Below are positions 5,018-43,890 of a stretch of DNA of 64,000 nt, one piece after another; the first letter of the stretch is position 1, and every line of letters starts with the position of its first letter. Source of the DNA: a virus; IMG/VR virus record IMGVR_UViG_3300021338_000003, positions 1-64,000 of that record. One strand, written 5' to 3'. The notes under the pieces are model-generated. The model had not been told where the DNA came from, made no database searches, and saw only the letters and a list, made by a program, of their open reading frames with translations. A program made the position numbers and the translations under genes.

Positions 5018-6310
5018 TTACGACCTCTTCATCTGATCGACCGCAATGAGGGCCATCTGTCGGAGTCTTTCACGGACTATGTCCAGTGGGTACATGTCCT
5101 TACTATCCGGGACAAGGTCAAAGGTACCAAAACAGCAACAGATGACCATTCTTTCTTTGTAGGATAGGGCCGACATGTAGTCACTAGCCTGAGTGGATGA
5201 CTTCCGGGACAACGAGTCCTCTACAGACTCACCTTCGTCTACTACGTTGTCTCGAAGCATGGTGCCAGGGTCGTCTTCGGACAGTGGACTTTCAAGACTG
5301 ACTGGACGATTGATCTGAATGGCCTGCATGACTTCGACCACTTGCTCCTCGGTCATCTTCATTTCTTTGGCGATGGCGGGGATGTCGCCTACAATCCCCT
5401 TGTCGTGGCTCATCTGCTCCATCTTGCGGTACACCTGCCAAAGAGGGGCAGGGATCTTGCACATGTTGGCTTCGGTCTTAAGATGAAGCAGGACCGAAGC
5501 CTGAATCCAGTTGCGAGCCAGTCCCGAAAATGCCTTTTCCCGATTGGGGTCGAAATAATTGGCTGCTCGAACCAAACCAGTGGACCCGTGCTGGAAGTTG
5601 TCGAGTATCTGCTGTTCTGACCTTCCATACTTCCGAGCCATCTGCATCACCAAGCGACGGAAGGAGACCAGAACCTTTGTCCTCATGGCCATAGCAATCT
5701 TCATGTGCCACTGTACCTGCTTGACCACCCCGTAGAAGTGAGTTTGTGTCGCCCCAAACCTTTCCTCCATTGACCTCGCTTTCATTTCCAGTCTTGCTAC
5801 TTCCAGTCTCAACTTCGGTCGAACCCTTTCCCCTATATCCTCAAGTCGTTCAACTTCCAGCCGTTTAGGGATGGCTTGGTCAACATACATGCAGTAGCGC
5901 TTGGTGCTTCGGAGGAATGACTCTCCTAGGATGATATACACTGCATAGACGAAAGGAAGAGATTCCTTGTGTTGAACATAGGGGGATATTGTATCCTTTT
6001 CCTTCATCGCTGAGTGATACATGAAGTCCAAACCCAGCTCAATCAGCAGAACTTCCCGCGGCAGATAATCATCAACTTCATACCCACCCCGCTCTCTGAT
6101 GATGTCCTCCCCGTAGAAGATCGTGACATTTTTGAGAACCTTCGCCGCCATCTTGGTGGTATTCTCAATCATGAAGGCATCGAAGAAGGAAGTATGAGCG
6201 CCTATCAGGTCAGCAACGTCTTCAATCACCTCATAGAACTCATGATACCACCACACCATCTCTCTATGGGGTATCAACGGTGCGTTGTATAGGGTTCCGA
6301 GATTGTACAC
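5018..6310 (-). CDS. Phage-encoded sigma-70-family transcription factor
   Basis: 430 residues. Region 2 is clear at about 215-290: MQMARKYGRSEQQILDNFQ, then HGSTGLVRAANYFDPNREKA and FSGLARNWIQASV, matching the family's 'D..QEG..GL..A...FD...G..FS..A..WI.Q'. Region 3 follows (IPAIAKEMKMTEEQVVEVMQ; PVSLESPLSEDD). A short region 4-like end (SYKERMVICCCFGTFD; VRERLRQMALIAV) replaces the normal helix-turn-helix. The first 200 residues are a long helical extension that I do not recognise. The start is GTG behind a G-rich Shine-Dalgarno site. It presumably redirects host RNA polymerase to a class of phage promoters. The divergent gene at 6359 starts 48 bases away. Confidence 0.85.
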   Translation of the reverse strand: MYNLGTLYNAPLIPHREMVWWYHEFYEVIEDVADLIGAHTSFFDAFMIENTTKMAAKVLKNVTIFYGEDIIRERGGYEVDDYLPREVLLIELGLDFMYHSAMKEKDTISPYVQHKESLPFVYAVYIILGESFLRSTKRYCMYVDQAIPKRLEVERLEDIGERVRPKLRLEVARLEMKARSMEERFGATQTHFYGVVKQVQWHMKIAMAMRTKVLVSFRRLVMQMARKYGRSEQQILDNFQHGSTGLVRAANYFDPNREKAFSGLARNWIQASVLLHLKTEANMCKIPAPLWQVYRKMEQMSHDKGIVGDIPAIAKEMKMTEEQVVEVMQAIQINRPVSLESPLSEDDPGTMLRDNVVDEGESVEDSLSRKSSTQASDYMSALSYKERMVICCCFGTFDLVPDSKDMYPLDIVRERLRQMALIAVDQMKRS

Positions 6311-16429: not shown

Positions 16430-17092
16430 TTACTCCTCCACGTCCAGCTCGGTAGTCAATGACCCACCGCTCCCCAGACCAGCCCAATCCATACCCAGAA
16501 TGTCCGGGCACTCATGGTCGCAAAGCTCATGAACAAGCTTTGCAAGGTCCTCCAGGGGGCCATGGAAGTTGAACTTGTAGAAGTTTCCCTTGGTACAATC
16601 GGGAGCGACTGCGGAAGCTCCAGGTTCGACCTCAATCTCAAGGGGTTCTTCTCCACCTGGGACACGGAAGGATGCGAAGTACACGTTCCTCCCAGCCTCT
16701 TGGCGGCGAATGTGGCGTCGAGCTTCATCGATGGCCTTCACCACCCCCTCGTCATCGAGGCTGGCCAGGACCCACACCTTGGACCCCATATACATATACT
16801 TCGACGCATCCACAGAAAGGTCGTCGGTGACAATCCACGACTTGGGCGGTTCTGCCTCCTCCAAAGCAGCCCTCTTCATATCCCGGGCACGTTGCACCAG
16901 GGCCTTGATCCTGTCGGAGGACACCCTGTAGAATCCATCACACACCTTCTCGGCGTCGCGCCCGGCCAGGCGATAGAGCCTGGCCAAAGTGGACCCAGGA
17001 AACGTAGCCCTCGGAGCCTCACTATGATTCGAACAATACTCTAGAAAGAAGTCATCAGTCCAGGTACTCATGTCAGTGGAATCGAAATTCAT
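16430..17092 (-). CDS. Hypothetical protein, 220 aa
   Basis: An acidic alpha/beta protein; motifs such as FRVPGGEEPLEIEVEPG and YKFNFHGPLEDLAKLVHEL do not match a family I know. The ATG overlaps the stop of the DUF2786-like gene (ATGA) behind GGGAGGTG, so the two are coupled under the promoter at 17856-17884. Confidence 0.6.
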   Translation of the reverse strand: MNFDSTDMSTWTDDFFLEYCSNHSEAPRATFPGSTLARLYRLAGRDAEKVCDGFYRVSSDRIKALVQRARDMKRAALEEAEPPKSWIVTDDLSVDASKYMYMGSKVWVLASLDDEGVVKAIDEARRHIRRQEAGRNVYFASFRVPGGEEPLEIEVEPGASAVAPDCTKGNFYKFNFHGPLEDLAKLVHELCDHECPDILGMDWAGLGSGGSLTTELDVEE

Positions 17093-17832
17093 CGCACACC
17101 TCCCTCGATTCTCTTCGTTTCCTTGATTTCGTCCTTCTTGGGCCCCTCCACACCCTTGTGGAGCTTGATATCCAGACCGGCCTTGTAGCCATCCCGGTTG
17201 AAGTCACTCTTGGACCCACCCTTGTACTTTCCGATCTTGGGGCAACGAGCCAACATGAACTCGTCGGACTTCTGGGCCCGAGACAGCACCAACGCAGTGC
17301 CCTGGGGGTCCTCGGCCTTGCCGGCGTCACGAATCTCTTGAAGCTTGACCGACAGGCCCCACACCGCAGACTCACGGTAGGACTGACAGTCACCATAGAG
17401 GTTGCGAAGGCCACGAGCAGTCCGCTCCTTCTTCCACTTCTTGAGGGCCTGCTGGATCTGACGTTCGCAGATATCGTAGAGGTAGTGCAGAATTTCAATA
17501 TCGGTCTTGTGACCAAAGAGCCGGGCGACGGCCTTGTTGGAGCCCTTGCCGGGGGTCTTGACCTTCATACGGAGGGCCTTGACGTTGCAGTGGTTGGCCA
17601 GAGCCCACACCAGCTTCATACGCCAAGTGACGCGACCAACATCCAGGCGGTCCTCAACGAGAGGGTCGGCTTCGAGGCTCACATCATTGATCTCCGACAT
17701 GGAGATGGCATGCTCCCGCATCATCTTGGCGGCGAGCTTGGCGGCGAGTTCCCCCTCGGGGGTACCAGCCTGGTCGTCGGCCAGGGCCATCATCTTCTTG
17801 AGCTTCTTCACGATCGGATTGATGTTAGTCAT
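17089..17832 (-). CDS. DUF2786-family protein
   Basis: 247 residues. The N-terminus (VKKLKKMMALADDQAGTPEG; LAAKLAAKMMREHAI, about 6-43) fits the DUF2786 pattern 'I..LL.LA...G...EAE.A...A..LM..HGI'. The second part (WRMKLVWALANHCNV; GHKTDIEILHYLYD) looks like the domain that often follows it. The function is unknown. ATG lies 7 bases after AAGGAGG. The gene has a consensus promoter ending about 18 bases before its start, so its mRNA leader is very short. Confidence 0.75.
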   Translation of the reverse strand: MTNINPIVKKLKKMMALADDQAGTPEGELAAKLAAKMMREHAISMSEINDVSLEADPLVEDRLDVGRVTWRMKLVWALANHCNVKALRMKVKTPGKGSNKAVARLFGHKTDIEILHYLYDICERQIQQALKKWKKERTARGLRNLYGDCQSYRESAVWGLSVKLQEIRDAGKAEDPQGTALVLSRAQKSDEFMLARCPKIGKYKGGSKSDFNRDGYKAGLDIKLHKGVEGPKKDEIKETKRIEGGVR

Positions 17833-17844
17833 CAGGTTGCCTCC

Positions 17845-17873
17845 TTGACACAAGTATTATAACACGGCATGAT
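17845..17873 (+). promoter_or_regulatory. Possible rightward promoter, overlapping the leftward one
   Basis: On the plus strand, TTGACA (17845-17850) is followed after 17 bases by CATGAT (17868-17873), 4 of 6 for a -10. It would serve the holin-like gene at 17910. It overlaps the much stronger leftward promoter face to face, so the two could not be occupied together. Confidence 0.35.
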
Positions 17874-17884
17874 ATACCTGTCAA
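17856..17884 (-). promoter_or_regulatory. Exact-consensus sigma-70 promoter
   Basis: On the minus strand: TTGACA (17884-17879), 17-base spacer, TATAAT (17861-17856), with TG one base before the -10 (extended -10). Both hexamers match the bacterial housekeeping consensus at 6 of 6. It drives the DUF2786-like gene and its downstream neighbours, and is the strongest promoter I found in the window. Confidence 0.9.
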
Positions 17885-17909
17885 GCAGGTCCTTCTGGGA
17901 GGATCCCAA

Positions 17910-18224
17910 ATGGAATTCGATTTGTATAGTGTTCTTGTTGCTGCCCTTACCTGGGTACTCACTCTTGGCGCCGGAAAGGTTATAGACCTTTCCAAGTACC
18001 CTCGTATGCGTCATATCCTACCCCTTGTGGCTATGGTCCTGGCTACTGGTCTTCAGTCTGCATTGGCTGTATGGCAGGGTGCCGATGCTTTCAGCGCCGA
18101 GGTGTTGTTGACGGGTCTATCCACTGGGGCTGTGGCTATCGCGAGTCATAGTCAAGGCCGGGAGATCTTGAAGCTCATCGCCGAGCTTGGGAAGCCTCTT
18201 CCTGAAGAGAATCCGACCGAGTGA
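17910..18224 (+). CDS. Holin-like membrane protein
   Basis: 104 residues behind GGGAGGATCCC. Two or three membrane segments: about 5-22 (YSVLVAALTWVLTLGAG), about 36-54 (ILPLVAMVLATGLQSALAV) and a weaker one at about 65-80 (VLLTGLSTGAVAIASHS). The tail is charged. Size, topology and the 'LTG..TG..A.ASHS' end resemble small phage holins that make membrane holes for lysis. No endolysin is adjacent, so another small membrane protein role cannot be excluded. Confidence 0.45.
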   Translation: MEFDLYSVLVAALTWVLTLGAGKVIDLSKYPRMRHILPLVAMVLATGLQSALAVWQGADAFSAEVLLTGLSTGAVAIASHSQGREILKLIAELGKPLPEENPTE

Positions 18225-18235
18225 TGGTGATTGCG

Positions 18236-18291
18236 ACTTGTGCTTCCTAGGATGCCATGTTAAAATGGTTGTGTACCTAGGAGGCACAAGT
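18236..18291. repeat. 16-bp inverted repeat enclosing a promoter and Shine-Dalgarno site
   Basis: Left arm ACTTGTGCTTCCTAGG (18236-18251) and right arm CCTAGGAGGCACAAGT (18276-18291) pair at 15 of 16 positions; the odd pair would be a G-U in RNA. The left arm includes the -35, the 24-base loop includes the -10, and the right arm includes AGGAGG and the first bases of the GTG start at 18290. Read-through RNA from the holin-like gene should therefore mask translation of 18290, while local transcripts should not. Confidence 0.75.
18238..18266 (+). promoter_or_regulatory. Promoter for the 18290 operon
   Basis: TTGTGC (18238-18243), 17-base spacer, TAAAAT (18261-18266) with an extended -10 (GCCATGT before it). 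The same GYCRTGY context precedes the -10 at 17861, 32373, 41754 and 43863. Predicted transcription begins near 18273, about 17 bases before the GTG. Confidence 0.6.
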
Positions 18292-18598
18292 GAGTGAAGA
18301 CCCCCTCTCCTTCCCCTGGCTGGAGGAGAACATTGGCCGCATCCTCGGTGGTCCCTCTTCAATGCGTGAAGTCAAGGGTCACCCCCTGAACAAGCTGGCA
18401 AAGGCCATCAGGGTCCTCAGCGAGGACCCCGGGACCACCGACTACGACGTGGCTACCGTGCTCTGGGATGTCTACGATGTCGCCCGGAAGTTCGGTCAAC
18501 AGGAGGCCCGCCGGAAGGCCCTCAGCCAGGCGATCACCCAGAACTCAGTGGAGGGTCGACGCCTCCACGATGAATGGTTCAAGGAAGTGACCAAGTGA
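18290..18598 (+). CDS. Hypothetical protein, 102 aa
   Basis: GTG start behind CCTAGGAGG. A helical, charged protein (LNKLAKAIRVLSEDPG; YDVARKFGQQEARRKAL). No family is recognised. It is the first gene of a run to about 21003 joined by 1-4 base overlaps, and its ribosome site sits in the inverted repeat 18236-18291. Confidence 0.6.
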   Translation: MSEDPLSFPWLEENIGRILGGPSSMREVKGHPLNKLAKAIRVLSEDPGTTDYDVATVLWDVYDVARKFGQQEARRKALSQAITQNSVEGRRLHDEWFKEVTK

Positions 18599-19319: not shown

Positions 19320-19658
19320 ATGGGTGATAAGCCCTGGTTCCTCTATATGGTCCAATCCGAAAAGACGGGGTACGTGTATGTCGGAGTAACTGTTCTCATG
19401 GCAAGGAGACTCCGGCAACACAACGGGGAAATCAAGGGAGGGGCCAGGGCTCTCCGGGGGCAACGTCCGGTCAGGTTGTTGTGGTGCGCCGAGGTGGAAG
19501 GAGGCAAGATTCCTGCACTTCGGTGTGAATACTGGCTGAAGAGGCATTCGAAGAAGTGGAAGCTTGAGTTTGCTCGGCTCGGTTCAGAGGAATCCACGGC
19601 CAGACTCCCGGAGAAGCTCCCTTATGGGTTCATTGTGATCAAGAAGGAGGAGCCATGA
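19320..19658 (+). CDS. GIY-YIG domain nuclease-like protein
   Basis: 112 residues. LYMVQSEKTGYVYVGVT (about 8-24) corresponds to the GIY...YIG strands; RRLRQHNGEIKGGARAL carries the conserved Arg and the His-Asn of UPF0213/SLX1-type domains; CEYWLKRHSKKWK supplies the catalytic Glu and Lys. It resembles the short stand-alone GIY-YIG proteins more than intron-homing enzymes. Likely a DNA-cleaving or repair enzyme. It begins on the base after the preceding stop. Confidence 0.75.
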   Translation: MGDKPWFLYMVQSEKTGYVYVGVTVLMARRLRQHNGEIKGGARALRGQRPVRLLWCAEVEGGKIPALRCEYWLKRHSKKWKLEFARLGSEESTARLPEKLPYGFIVIKKEEP

Positions 19659-32635: not shown

Positions 32636-32899
32636 ATGGGCCGTACTTCGTTGTCACAATATAGCGCGTTGGAACTTCTGGAAGAGCTGCAGAAGAGAGG
32701 ATACTTGGTTGCCCATGATGTCCACAAAGTCAAACAGCGTGTTCGGGTGACAGACCGCTTCAGACACCTCATGAGAAAGCACCTGGGTCCAACCGTCCTA
32801 GAAGAAGAGATGACGTCCAGGTCGAGGTCGAATTTTGAGCGATTCCTATTCCCGACAGGTATATTGACATGTCAAAACGATCGCGAAGGTGGCTTCTAG
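32636..32899 (+). CDS. Hypothetical protein, 87 aa
   Basis: ATG behind CCGGAGGGCCAT, giving MGRTSLSQYSALELLEELQK. Helical and basic (HKVKQRVRVTDRFRHLMRKH). The last 25 codons overlap the first TTGACATGTCAA palindrome, so the true end of function may be earlier. No family recognised. Confidence 0.5.
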   Translation: MGRTSLSQYSALELLEELQKRGYLVAHDVHKVKQRVRVTDRFRHLMRKHLGPTVLEEEMTSRSRSNFERFLFPTGILTCQNDREGGF

Positions 32900-32951
32900 G
32901 TTGATTGTGCCATTCAATAATGCAACACATTGTTGCATTTTGACATGTCAA
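32864..32951. repeat. Two copies of the perfect palindrome TTGACATGTCAA
   Basis: Copies at 32864-32875 and 32940-32951, 76 bases apart, with a one-mismatch copy (TTGCCATGTCAA) at 33166-33177. A 12-bp perfect palindrome repeated in a non-coding gap is typical of an operator for a dimeric DNA-binding protein. The winged-helix protein at 15991 is one candidate reader. Confidence 0.55.
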
Positions 32952-33222
32952 TGGCACTCTGAGACCAGTCAATAGGGGATAGAAAACCCCTAAGCGGTAG
33001 GGTCAGAACTTCCCAAAACGTCTCAGAAGACCCAGAAATGCACTGGATACGGCCCAAAGCCCTTCGTGTATGACCGCGAGCTTTTTGTAGGCCCCAGAAA
33101 ACGTCCAGGCCATACATGAAGGGGCTTCTCAAAATGCTCTTTCTGACACTGATCGTTCCCAGATATTGCCATGTCAATTCTCCGAACACACTGAGCCATA
33201 AGGCATGCATGGACCAACCTTT

Positions 33223-37824: not shown

Positions 37825-38649
37825 ATGTTCGGTGGTGATGATTCGTGGGATGAGGACGATTGGGGCGAGTGGAGCGAGGACGGGGATTCGTCCGGGGCTG
37901 CTTCCGATGACAAGCCGGCTGAGGAGGAGGCCCCCAAGCCTGCTGCTGCCAAGCCGGCAGCCAAGAAGAAGCGGCCCGCCAAGGCCAAGGCGGTTGACAA
38001 GCCCGCTGCGGCCAAGAAGAAGCGGCCCGCCAAGGCCAAGGCGGTTGACAAGCCCGCTGCGGCCAAGAAGGCAGCTGCGGCGAAGAAGGCAGCTGCGGCG
38101 AAGAAGCCAGCCGCTGCCAAGAAGCCTGCGGCCAAGAAGGGTCCGCTGGTTCCGCTGACCTTCTTCAAGGCCGGTGACAACCTCGTTCTCCAGAAGAACG
38201 ACCCCCAGACTGGCGAGGCGCAGAACTTCAACAAGGCGCACTTCAAGAAGGGTGCCCTCAAGGGTCTGATGACGTACGACTTCAAGTCGGTGGGCTATAC
38301 TACGCCCTACGCCCAGATCAAGGAGCTTCGGGCCGCCCTGAAGGAAGCTGGCTACAAGCTCGTTCGTGGCAAGGCTCCAGCTGCTGCGAAGCCGGCCGCT
38401 TCCAAGAAGCCGGCCGCTTCCAAGAAGCCGGCCGCTTCCAAGAAGCCCGCGGCTGCGAAGCCGGCTGCAGCCAAGAAGCCGGCCGTCAAGCTGGCCAACC
38501 GGAAGGCGTACAACACCCTCGTGTCCTCCATCCGGGACAGCCTGGTGATGGTCGGTGCTCGCTTCAGCGAGGACGACGCCCGCAACGCCCTGGACTACTT
38601 CCTGTCGCGCCCCGAGGCGTCCGTCAGAGATGCCTGGGACAAGCGGTGA
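37825..38649 (+). CDS. Histone-H1-like Lys/Ala repeat protein
   Basis: 274 residues behind ACAGGAGAGAT. An acidic N-terminus (FGGDDSWDEDDWGEWSEDG) leads to Lys/Ala/Pro repeats (about 37-108), including a 17-residue unit AAKKKRPAKAKAVDKPA twice. A folded region follows (about 109-180, PLTFFKAGDNLVLQKND), then ASKKPA-type repeats (about 185-220) and a final helical domain (about 222-274, YNTLVSSIRDSLVMVGARFS). Tails of this kind occur in linker histones and bacterial H1-like proteins and bind DNA. It probably condenses or coats phage or host DNA. Own promoter and double terminator suggest strong, isolated expression. Confidence 0.65.
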   Translation: MFGGDDSWDEDDWGEWSEDGDSSGAASDDKPAEEEAPKPAAAKPAAKKKRPAKAKAVDKPAAAKKKRPAKAKAVDKPAAAKKAAAAKKAAAAKKPAAAKKPAAKKGPLVPLTFFKAGDNLVLQKNDPQTGEAQNFNKAHFKKGALKGLMTYDFKSVGYTTPYAQIKELRAALKEAGYKLVRGKAPAAAKPAASKKPAASKKPAASKKPAAAKPAAAKKPAVKLANRKAYNTLVSSIRDSLVMVGARFSEDDARNALDYFLSRPEASVRDAWDKR

Positions 38650-38657
38650 GAGCCCTT

Positions 38658-38703
38658 GTTCTCAAACCATTCCATTATCCCCCTGATGGAATGGTTTGAG
38701 AAC
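38658..38703. terminator. 18-bp perfect hairpin after the H1-like gene
   Basis: GTTCTCAAACCATTCCAT pairs perfectly with ATGGAATGGTTTGAGAAC around a 10-base loop. No U-tract on the plus strand. It may act in both directions between convergent transcription units or protect the mRNA end. Confidence 0.6.
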
Positions 38704-38709
38704 ATCAGT

Positions 38710-38789: not shown

Positions 38790-39722
38790 CTAGACGTCCC
38801 GACACTTGATTTTGAGTTGAGCCTCCATCCGTATGCTGCCGCCTTTGGACAGACGGATGTTTCGAGACTCCTCCCACGACTTGCGAACGCTCCTAGCCGC
38901 CTCAGACGGGGGCGTATTGCATTCTAGAACCCTTCTCATCTGGGCTACCAGGTCCTCCCAGTCGTCACCCCATGGCTCATCCTCGATACGCTTGACTGGC
39001 GGAGCATCGAGGGTGGTCACCTTTCCATTCCTAGGGAACTTCTTTCCGGTTTCAGTTCGGAACACCATCTCCGATGTACCACGAGGGTGGGTTTGACCTC
39101 TGACCCGTATATCTCTTCCGGCCGCTTTGAACCCAACGCTCCCGGAGAACATGATTTCTGGGCCCTTAGAAAGGTCAAGAGGGTCCTCGTATTGGGTTAG
39201 GAAGCGGCCGTGGGGTCCGTCGAGTATTTCGACGGGGGCGACAGTCCATGAGCCCTCCCCGGGGCCCTCCGAGACCCAGGTCAGGAGCAGGCCCTCGTGC
39301 TCACCATTTCTGACCAGTATTGGAGTGGTTTGGGAATGGGTAGCCAGGGCAAATTCCTGGGCCAGGACCCCACCCACTCTGATGGTCCTGTTTTGGACTT
39401 TCTGTACTTGGTCAGACATATCCTTGAAATGCTCACAGGATATTGACTCGGCACTTCGATGATTGTCCATGCCATCAATAAGGCCCAAGTCCGAGCATGG
39501 TTTGGACTTCCTGTAGCGACTGAACTTTGTCCAAAATTGGCATTCGCCACAAGTGGCATGGGTCAAGGGGGTGTACTTATCACAGAGGTAGTCAGGGGGT
39601 GTTCCGATGACCTTCTTACCATCTATTTTGACCCTTTTGGATACCTTGCACGTACGACCCCGCACCTTGTGTTGCCACAAAAAACAGGTGGCACAACTTG
39701 GGGGTGGTTGACTGTTTGCCAT
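38790..39722 (-). CDS. Protein with two N-terminal four-cysteine clusters
   Basis: 310 residues. Cluster 1 spans SCATCFLW to LCDKY (about 9-47) and cluster 2 spans CGECQFW to CEHF (about 57-98), each C-x2-C-x-[FL]-W...C...C-x2-[FY]. The same pattern is in the RecA-like protein and in the gene at 52198. The middle is beta-rich (GLLLTWVSEGPGEGSWTVAP), the C-terminus helical and basic. Probably metal-binding; function unknown. Three genes run leftward from 41711. Confidence 0.55.
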   Translation of the reverse strand: MANSQPPPSCATCFLWQHKVRGRTCKVSKRVKIDGKKVIGTPPDYLCDKYTPLTHATCGECQFWTKFSRYRKSKPCSDLGLIDGMDNHRSAESISCEHFKDMSDQVQKVQNRTIRVGGVLAQEFALATHSQTTPILVRNGEHEGLLLTWVSEGPGEGSWTVAPVEILDGPHGRFLTQYEDPLDLSKGPEIMFSGSVGFKAAGRDIRVRGQTHPRGTSEMVFRTETGKKFPRNGKVTTLDAPPVKRIEDEPWGDDWEDLVAQMRRVLECNTPPSEAARSVRKSWEESRNIRLSKGGSIRMEAQLKIKCRDV

Positions 39723-41730: not shown

Positions 41731-41759
41731 TTGCCTTTTTACGGCTGCCGTGTTATAAT
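41731..41759 (+). promoter_or_regulatory. Promoter for the 41777 operon
   Basis: TTGCCT (41731-41736), 17-base spacer, TATAAT (41754-41759) with extended TGT (GCCGTGT). TGCCTTTT (41732-41739) can pair with AGGAGGCA (41765-41772), the Shine-Dalgarno region, using two G-U pairs. Transcription would start at about 41766, within the Shine-Dalgarno itself, so the leader is very short or start sites vary. Confidence 0.75.
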
Positions 41760-41776
41760 GGGTTAGGAGGCATCAA

Positions 41777-42145
41777 ATGGCGAAATACATCTTCGTAACG
41801 ACCAATTGTGACGAGTGTGGGAGCATTTTCTCATCCATCTGCAAGGCGGGGGACTACAGCGGAAAGTGCATGGACTGCCAGGAAAAGGCCGAGGCCCCTG
41901 TGGTCAACCCTGAGCACGTTGCGGCTGACTTGGACCAAATCGAAGTTCGGTCTACCGGCGCAGCCAACCGCAAGCCGCGTCCTTTCTTCTGTGACCGTGT
42001 CTGTCTGCATGAATTCGACCTCTCCTTCGTTCAGCATCACGTAGGACTGGATATCAAGGTGTGTGAGTGCGGATGGCATAGAGACTGGACCAACGAAGTT
42101 CACACCAGGCCCTACACCACCCCACAGAAGCCCTGGAGGCGATGA
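41777..42145 (+). CDS. Cysteine-rich zinc-ribbon-like protein, 122 aa
   Basis: ATG after TTAGGAGGCATCAA. CDECGSIFSSICKAGDYSGK...CMDC (about 10-34) forms a zinc-ribbon-like set; more Cys/His pairs follow (FFCDRVCLHEF, VCECGWH). Role unknown. It starts a plus-strand run. Confidence 0.55.
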   Translation: MAKYIFVTTNCDECGSIFSSICKAGDYSGKCMDCQEKAEAPVVNPEHVAADLDQIEVRSTGAANRKPRPFFCDRVCLHEFDLSFVQHHVGLDIKVCECGWHRDWTNEVHTRPYTTPQKPWRR

Positions 42146-43839: not shown

Positions 43840-43868
43840 TTGCCTTCCTTTGTATGTCGTGCTAAAAT
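43840..43868 (+). promoter_or_regulatory. Promoter for the 43891 operon
   Basis: TTGCCT (43840-43845), 17-base spacer, TAAAAT (43863-43868), extended TGC (GTCGTGC). Leader about 15-20 bases before the ATG at 43891. Same design as the promoter at 41731. Confidence 0.7.
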
Positions 43869-43890
43869 ACAATCAGACAGGAGAGAACAT

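Follow-up and report, generated by a model that had tools for sequence, protein, structure and literature searches.

A promoter embedded in a hairpin predicted to mask the Shine-Dalgarno sequence of read-through RNA, and its recurrence within a jumbo-phage promoter class

Background

In transposase protection of the IS10/IS50 type, RNA arriving from outside the element folds and hides the ribosome-binding site (RBS), and transcripts of the inner promoter stay open. A comparable arrangement has been described for the T4 genes e, soc, 49 and I-TevI, in which the Shine-Dalgarno (SD) sequence or start codon is hidden in upstream-initiated RNA and exposed in transcripts that start from a hairpin-internal promoter (PMC3014915, PMC2988022), with the masked e RNA translated approximately 100-fold less (PMC3014915). 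The homing endonuclease genes mobE of Aeh1 and segB of T4 have a hairpin over the RBS and an embedded late promoter (PMC2988022). Here we describe a hairpin with an embedded promoter at 18236-18291 of a 64,000-nucleotide window (positions 1 to 64,000) taken from a jumbo-phage record of 250,817 bases (IMGVR_UViG_3300021338_000003).

Results

The left hairpin arm ACTTGTGCTTCCTAGG (18236-18251, +) and the right arm CCTAGGAGGCACAAGT (18276-18291, +) pair across a 24-nt loop, with complementary bases at 15 of 16 positions and U-G at the other. Since the right arm spans 18276-18291, it takes in the SD AGGAGG (18279-18284) as well as the GT of the GTG start codon (18290-18292) of a 102-aa ORF (18290-18598, +) that is putatively controlled by the hairpin. 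The left arm includes the -35-like hexamer TTGTGC (18238-18243, +) and would act as an anti-SD in read-through RNA. The first-pass annotation had described arms of 16 bases with fifteen matches and one G-U, the left arm covering the -35, the loop the -10, and the right arm the SD and start codon, and each of these elements was located where it had been placed, although the -35 is weak.

The predicted fold of RNA 18216-18311 had an energy of -43.6 kcal/mol (z of -6.4) that was equalled by none of 200 shuffles, and RNA 18230-18300 gave a z of -7.8 against dinucleotide shuffles. Structures were predicted for both transcript forms, a check that the first-pass annotation had named, and opening the RBS of the focal gene would cost approximately 25.6 kcal/mol in read-through RNA, as against approximately 5.3 kcal/mol for transcripts starting at the inner promoter. 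The SD and start codon are thus predicted to be buried in a stable helix when RNA initiates upstream, and the positions of the -35, the -10 and the predicted start indicate that the embedded promoter overlaps the 5' strand of this helix and that its RNA would be free of that strand. No known RNA families were found in the window.

Inverted repeats with 16-base arms, 15 matches and a loop of 4-60 nt were absent from 60 dinucleotide shuffles of the window, while the real window contained three, the hairpin at 18236 and others at 32.86 kb and 38.66 kb. The repeat at 38656-38705 is a perfect 16-bp inverted repeat between the convergent genes 37825-38649 (+) and 38790-39722 (-) and is probably a bidirectional terminator. 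The repeat at 32862-32955 has TTGACATGTCAA-like arms approximately 56-60 nt apart and is not at a clear gene start.

The -35-like hexamer of the embedded promoter matches at three of six positions (class consensus TTGCRC/TTGACA) and is followed at a spacing of 17 nt by the -10, which falls within the loop as part of the class motif TGCCATGTTAAAATGG (18253-18268, +) that includes the extended -10 TGTTAAAAT (18258-18266). Transcription is predicted to start at 18273-18275 (+), approximately 7 nt past the -10 and in the loop just 5' of the right arm. By its sequence the promoter is sigma-70-like with an extended -10 and not a T4-type late promoter. The T4-type late promoter motif TATAAATA did not occur in the 250,817-base record, and identity as a T4 late promoter was rejected on this absence and on the TTG at -35 and extended -10 of the class. 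The TGCCR that precedes the -10, here and at the other class sites, exceeds a normal extended -10.

The 102-aa ORF heads a co-directional run of genes and had no PHROG, Pfam or phage relative. Upstream and co-directional is a 104-aa ORF with hydrophobic stretches (17910-18224, +), a likely source of read-through RNA, whose stop codon sits about 11-12 nt 5' of the left arm; a scan for terminator-like sites between this ORF and the hairpin found none. Neither protein had recognisable relatives in viral_contigs, nor did the focal protein among phages. Further along the gene run that follows the focal promoter is a gene for a GIY-YIG domain protein (19320-19658), notable in that T4 homing endonucleases carry this kind of mask.

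The record encodes a DnaB-like helicase, a clamp loader and an SbcC-like protein. The only named phages sharing a 447-aa conserved protein were Agrobacterium phage Atu_ph07 and Salicola phage SCTP-2 (31-36% identity), and neither this protein nor the DnaB-like helicase had kin in viral_contigs. As no close relative was found, recurrence inside the genome was used in place of conservation across phages. Matches to the promoter pattern in other viral contigs belonged to unrelated phages, where complements were mostly 3-6 bp, and a related extended-promoter pattern occurred nine times in SCTP-2 and not at all in Atu_ph07 (reversed control, one).

Across the record the promoter class follows a strict, phage-wide pattern of TTG-N17-TGnTAWAAT, nearly always with TGCCR ahead of the -10. 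The 15-base focal -10 motif GCCRTGTTAWAATGG was found at 25 places with up to two mismatches as opposed to none for the reversed pattern, TGYTAWAAT had 28 matches compared with one reversed, and the -10 pattern with TTG at -35 and 17-nt spacing had 26 exact matches. Sites 139663, 179052, 150286 and 159619 were excluded from the final set as doubtful promoters or as lacking an SD, and 24 promoters were kept. TG, CC and TGnTAWAAT were near-invariant in these 24 sites, most had TTGCNN or TTGACR at -35, and the spacer was rich in C and T. The start codon lay 16-24 nt past the -10 hexamer at all 24 sites and the SD approximately 8 nt past the -10, which predicts short leaders of about 10-17 nt. Class promoters precede mostly small proteins of unassigned function.

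The second member of the class in this region is a divergent promoter, TTGACA-17-TGTTATAAT (17839-17890, -), in which CTTGACA forms the arm and its pairing partner, TGTCAAG, overlaps the SD of gene 17092-17832 (-). TTGCCT-17-TGTTATAAT (41731-41777, +) has no significant mask and TTGCCT-17-TGCTAAAAT (43840-43884, +) has none. CCAT/ATGG around the -10 forms a small inverted repeat at many class sites. The promoters at record positions 181421 and 245466 are almost identical from the -35 through the SD and precede different genes, which suggests promoter duplication; because of these near-duplicates the 24 sites are not fully independent.

If upstream DNA had been selected to hide an SD, each upstream region should match the SD of its own promoter more closely than the SDs elsewhere in the class. 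The longest complement averaged 5.5 between an upstream region and its own SD and 4.7 when swapped (p = 0.0003, or 0.001 without the focal site), and orientation controls were negative (direct repeat, p = 0.12; reversed, p = 0.77), the effect being specific to antiparallel pairing. The RBS opening energy was 10.1 kcal/mol with the promoter's own upstream region, 7.6 with those of other promoters and 4.0 for inner-promoter transcripts, and own exceeded swapped upstream regions at p < 1e-5 (5e-5 without the focal site). Mean duplex energy differed between own and other upstream regions by only 2 kcal/mol, a modest separation driven by a subset of sites.

Masking exceeded a z of 2 against shuffled upstream DNA at eight of the 24 sites (94999, 18258, 247190, 155936-, 88546, 246020, 83273 and 17856-), leaving about two thirds of the class without a significant mask. 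The arms are specific to each site, including GCCTCCTTGTGT (94999), CCTCCTTG (247190), ATTGACACCT (88546) and CTTGACA (17856-), and are perfect over 12 bp at 94999 and 10 bp at 88546. Masks with z above 2.5 were found at 8/24 class promoters versus 8/60 other genes of the window (p = 0.04; Mann-Whitney p = 0.02), a modest contrast as structured starts also occur at some other genes. Co-directional upstream neighbours were not significantly more frequent at masked promoters in the 24-site class (p = 0.17), and the gene upstream of the masked promoter 17856- is divergent. What the DNA itself shows is the hairpin, the class of promoters, their fixed distance to the start codon and the locus-specific complementarity; on this reading the hairpin arrangement belongs to a class of promoters in the phage record rather than being a single oddity.

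Discussion

We regard it as probable that the focal gene is an expression unit insensitive to read-through and that the same device operates at about eight of the 24 class promoters. Upstream RNA, at least that from the 17910-18224 gene, would carry both arms and fold into a hairpin of approximately 20 bp that hides AGGAGG and the start codon, so that the 102-aa gene would not be translated from it. RNA from the inner promoter would begin in the loop without the left arm and have a leader of approximately 15 nt with its SD exposed. Translation would therefore track the gene's own promoter and not transcription of its neighbours. Promoter activity, the transcription start, the block to translation and its timing are predictions in this scheme.

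Palindromes at promoters are often operators, and a phage or host repressor bound to both arms across the promoter, with RNA folding incidental, would suit arms that are symmetric about the -10 and overlap the -35. This explanation is improbable, as arm sequence and position vary between promoters while pairing with the promoter's own SD is kept, and all but one of the top duplexes overlap the SD. A shared repressor needs a shared arm sequence and the arms differ by promoter, thus a shared operator is disfavoured and was rejected. About equally unlikely is that the hairpin acts on the mRNA of the upstream gene, which it would stabilise at the 3' end, terminate or mark for processing. It does begin a short distance (about 11-12 nt) past the stop codon of the 17910-18224 ORF, as 3' hairpins do, yet such a role would leave unexplained both the embedded promoter and the SD-matching arms of other promoters. 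A terminator was rejected, as no T-run follows the stem and the scan found no terminator-like site. A 3' element could nevertheless be a second role of the hairpin.

The complementarity might also arise incidentally where a spacer rich in pyrimidines faces an SD rich in purines, together with one chance outlier. The C/T-rich spacers of the class and the mean duplex energy, which weakens by just 2 kcal/mol with the upstream regions of other promoters, would both be expected from this. It is already disfavoured and we give it slightly less weight than either of the preceding explanations, because own pairs beat swapped pairs with the focal site removed in both complement length (p = 0.001) and opening energy (5e-5), and because the 12-bp perfect arm at 94999 and the 10-bp arm at 88546 are specific to their loci.

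For masking of read-through RNA, the account in the first-pass annotation, with read-through RNA masked and the inner transcript open, has good sequence support, in the difference between the two predicted opening energies and in the recurrence with locus-specific arms. Its likeness to T4 e/soc stood as far as the working principle is concerned; the timing that this likeness implied, with early transcripts masked and late ones open, found no support, as the promoter is sigma-70-like and the T4 late motif is absent from the record. T4 uses late promoters and the present class is sigma-70-like, so the timing may be reversed relative to T4. A phage-encoded protein with sigma-70 regions 2 and 3 (5018-6310, -) was observed in the window and might be a reader of the promoter class; since such a sigma factor could also read the class, either early or late timing could apply. 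Were the class early, the masks would stop translation of later read-through RNA, the reverse of T4. A broader proposal, which we put forward tentatively and judge rather less likely to hold than not, is that the phage-wide class yields nearly leaderless transcripts with built-in, locus-specific masks, each gene being translated only from its own promoter, and that its sigma-70-like nature would confine early genes to early RNA in a reversal of the T4 late logic.

Masking of read-through RNA has so far been known from a small number of T4 genes and from homing endonucleases. That a distant jumbo phage shows it at several promoters within one class, with site-specific arms that pair with their own SD, suggests repeated evolution of insulation in compact phage genomes. 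The presence of both masked and unmasked class members in the same genome also provides a simple test set.

Among known systems, the IS10/IS50 type resembles the focal locus in that outside RNA hides the RBS and inner-promoter RNA is open, here as read from sequence, and differs from it as no transposase or IS ends are present. Aeh1 mobE and T4 segB share an RBS hairpin with an embedded promoter, and a GIY-YIG gene (19320-19658) is in the operon here; unlike in those systems, the masked gene is not an endonuclease, and the GIY-YIG gene is approximately 1 kb downstream with an RBS other than the masked one. The focal locus also resembles T4 e, soc, 49 and I-TevI, where an SD and/or start codon is in a helix that needs upstream RNA and whose 5' strand is overlapped by the promoter, so that inner RNA lacks that strand. 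By analogy with T4 e, soc and I-TevI, read-through masking is the best reading of the focal hairpin, although the T4 genes use late promoters, whereas the putative promoters here are of the sigma-70-like form TTG-N17-TGnTAWAAT and precede at least 24 genes, about one third of which are masked.
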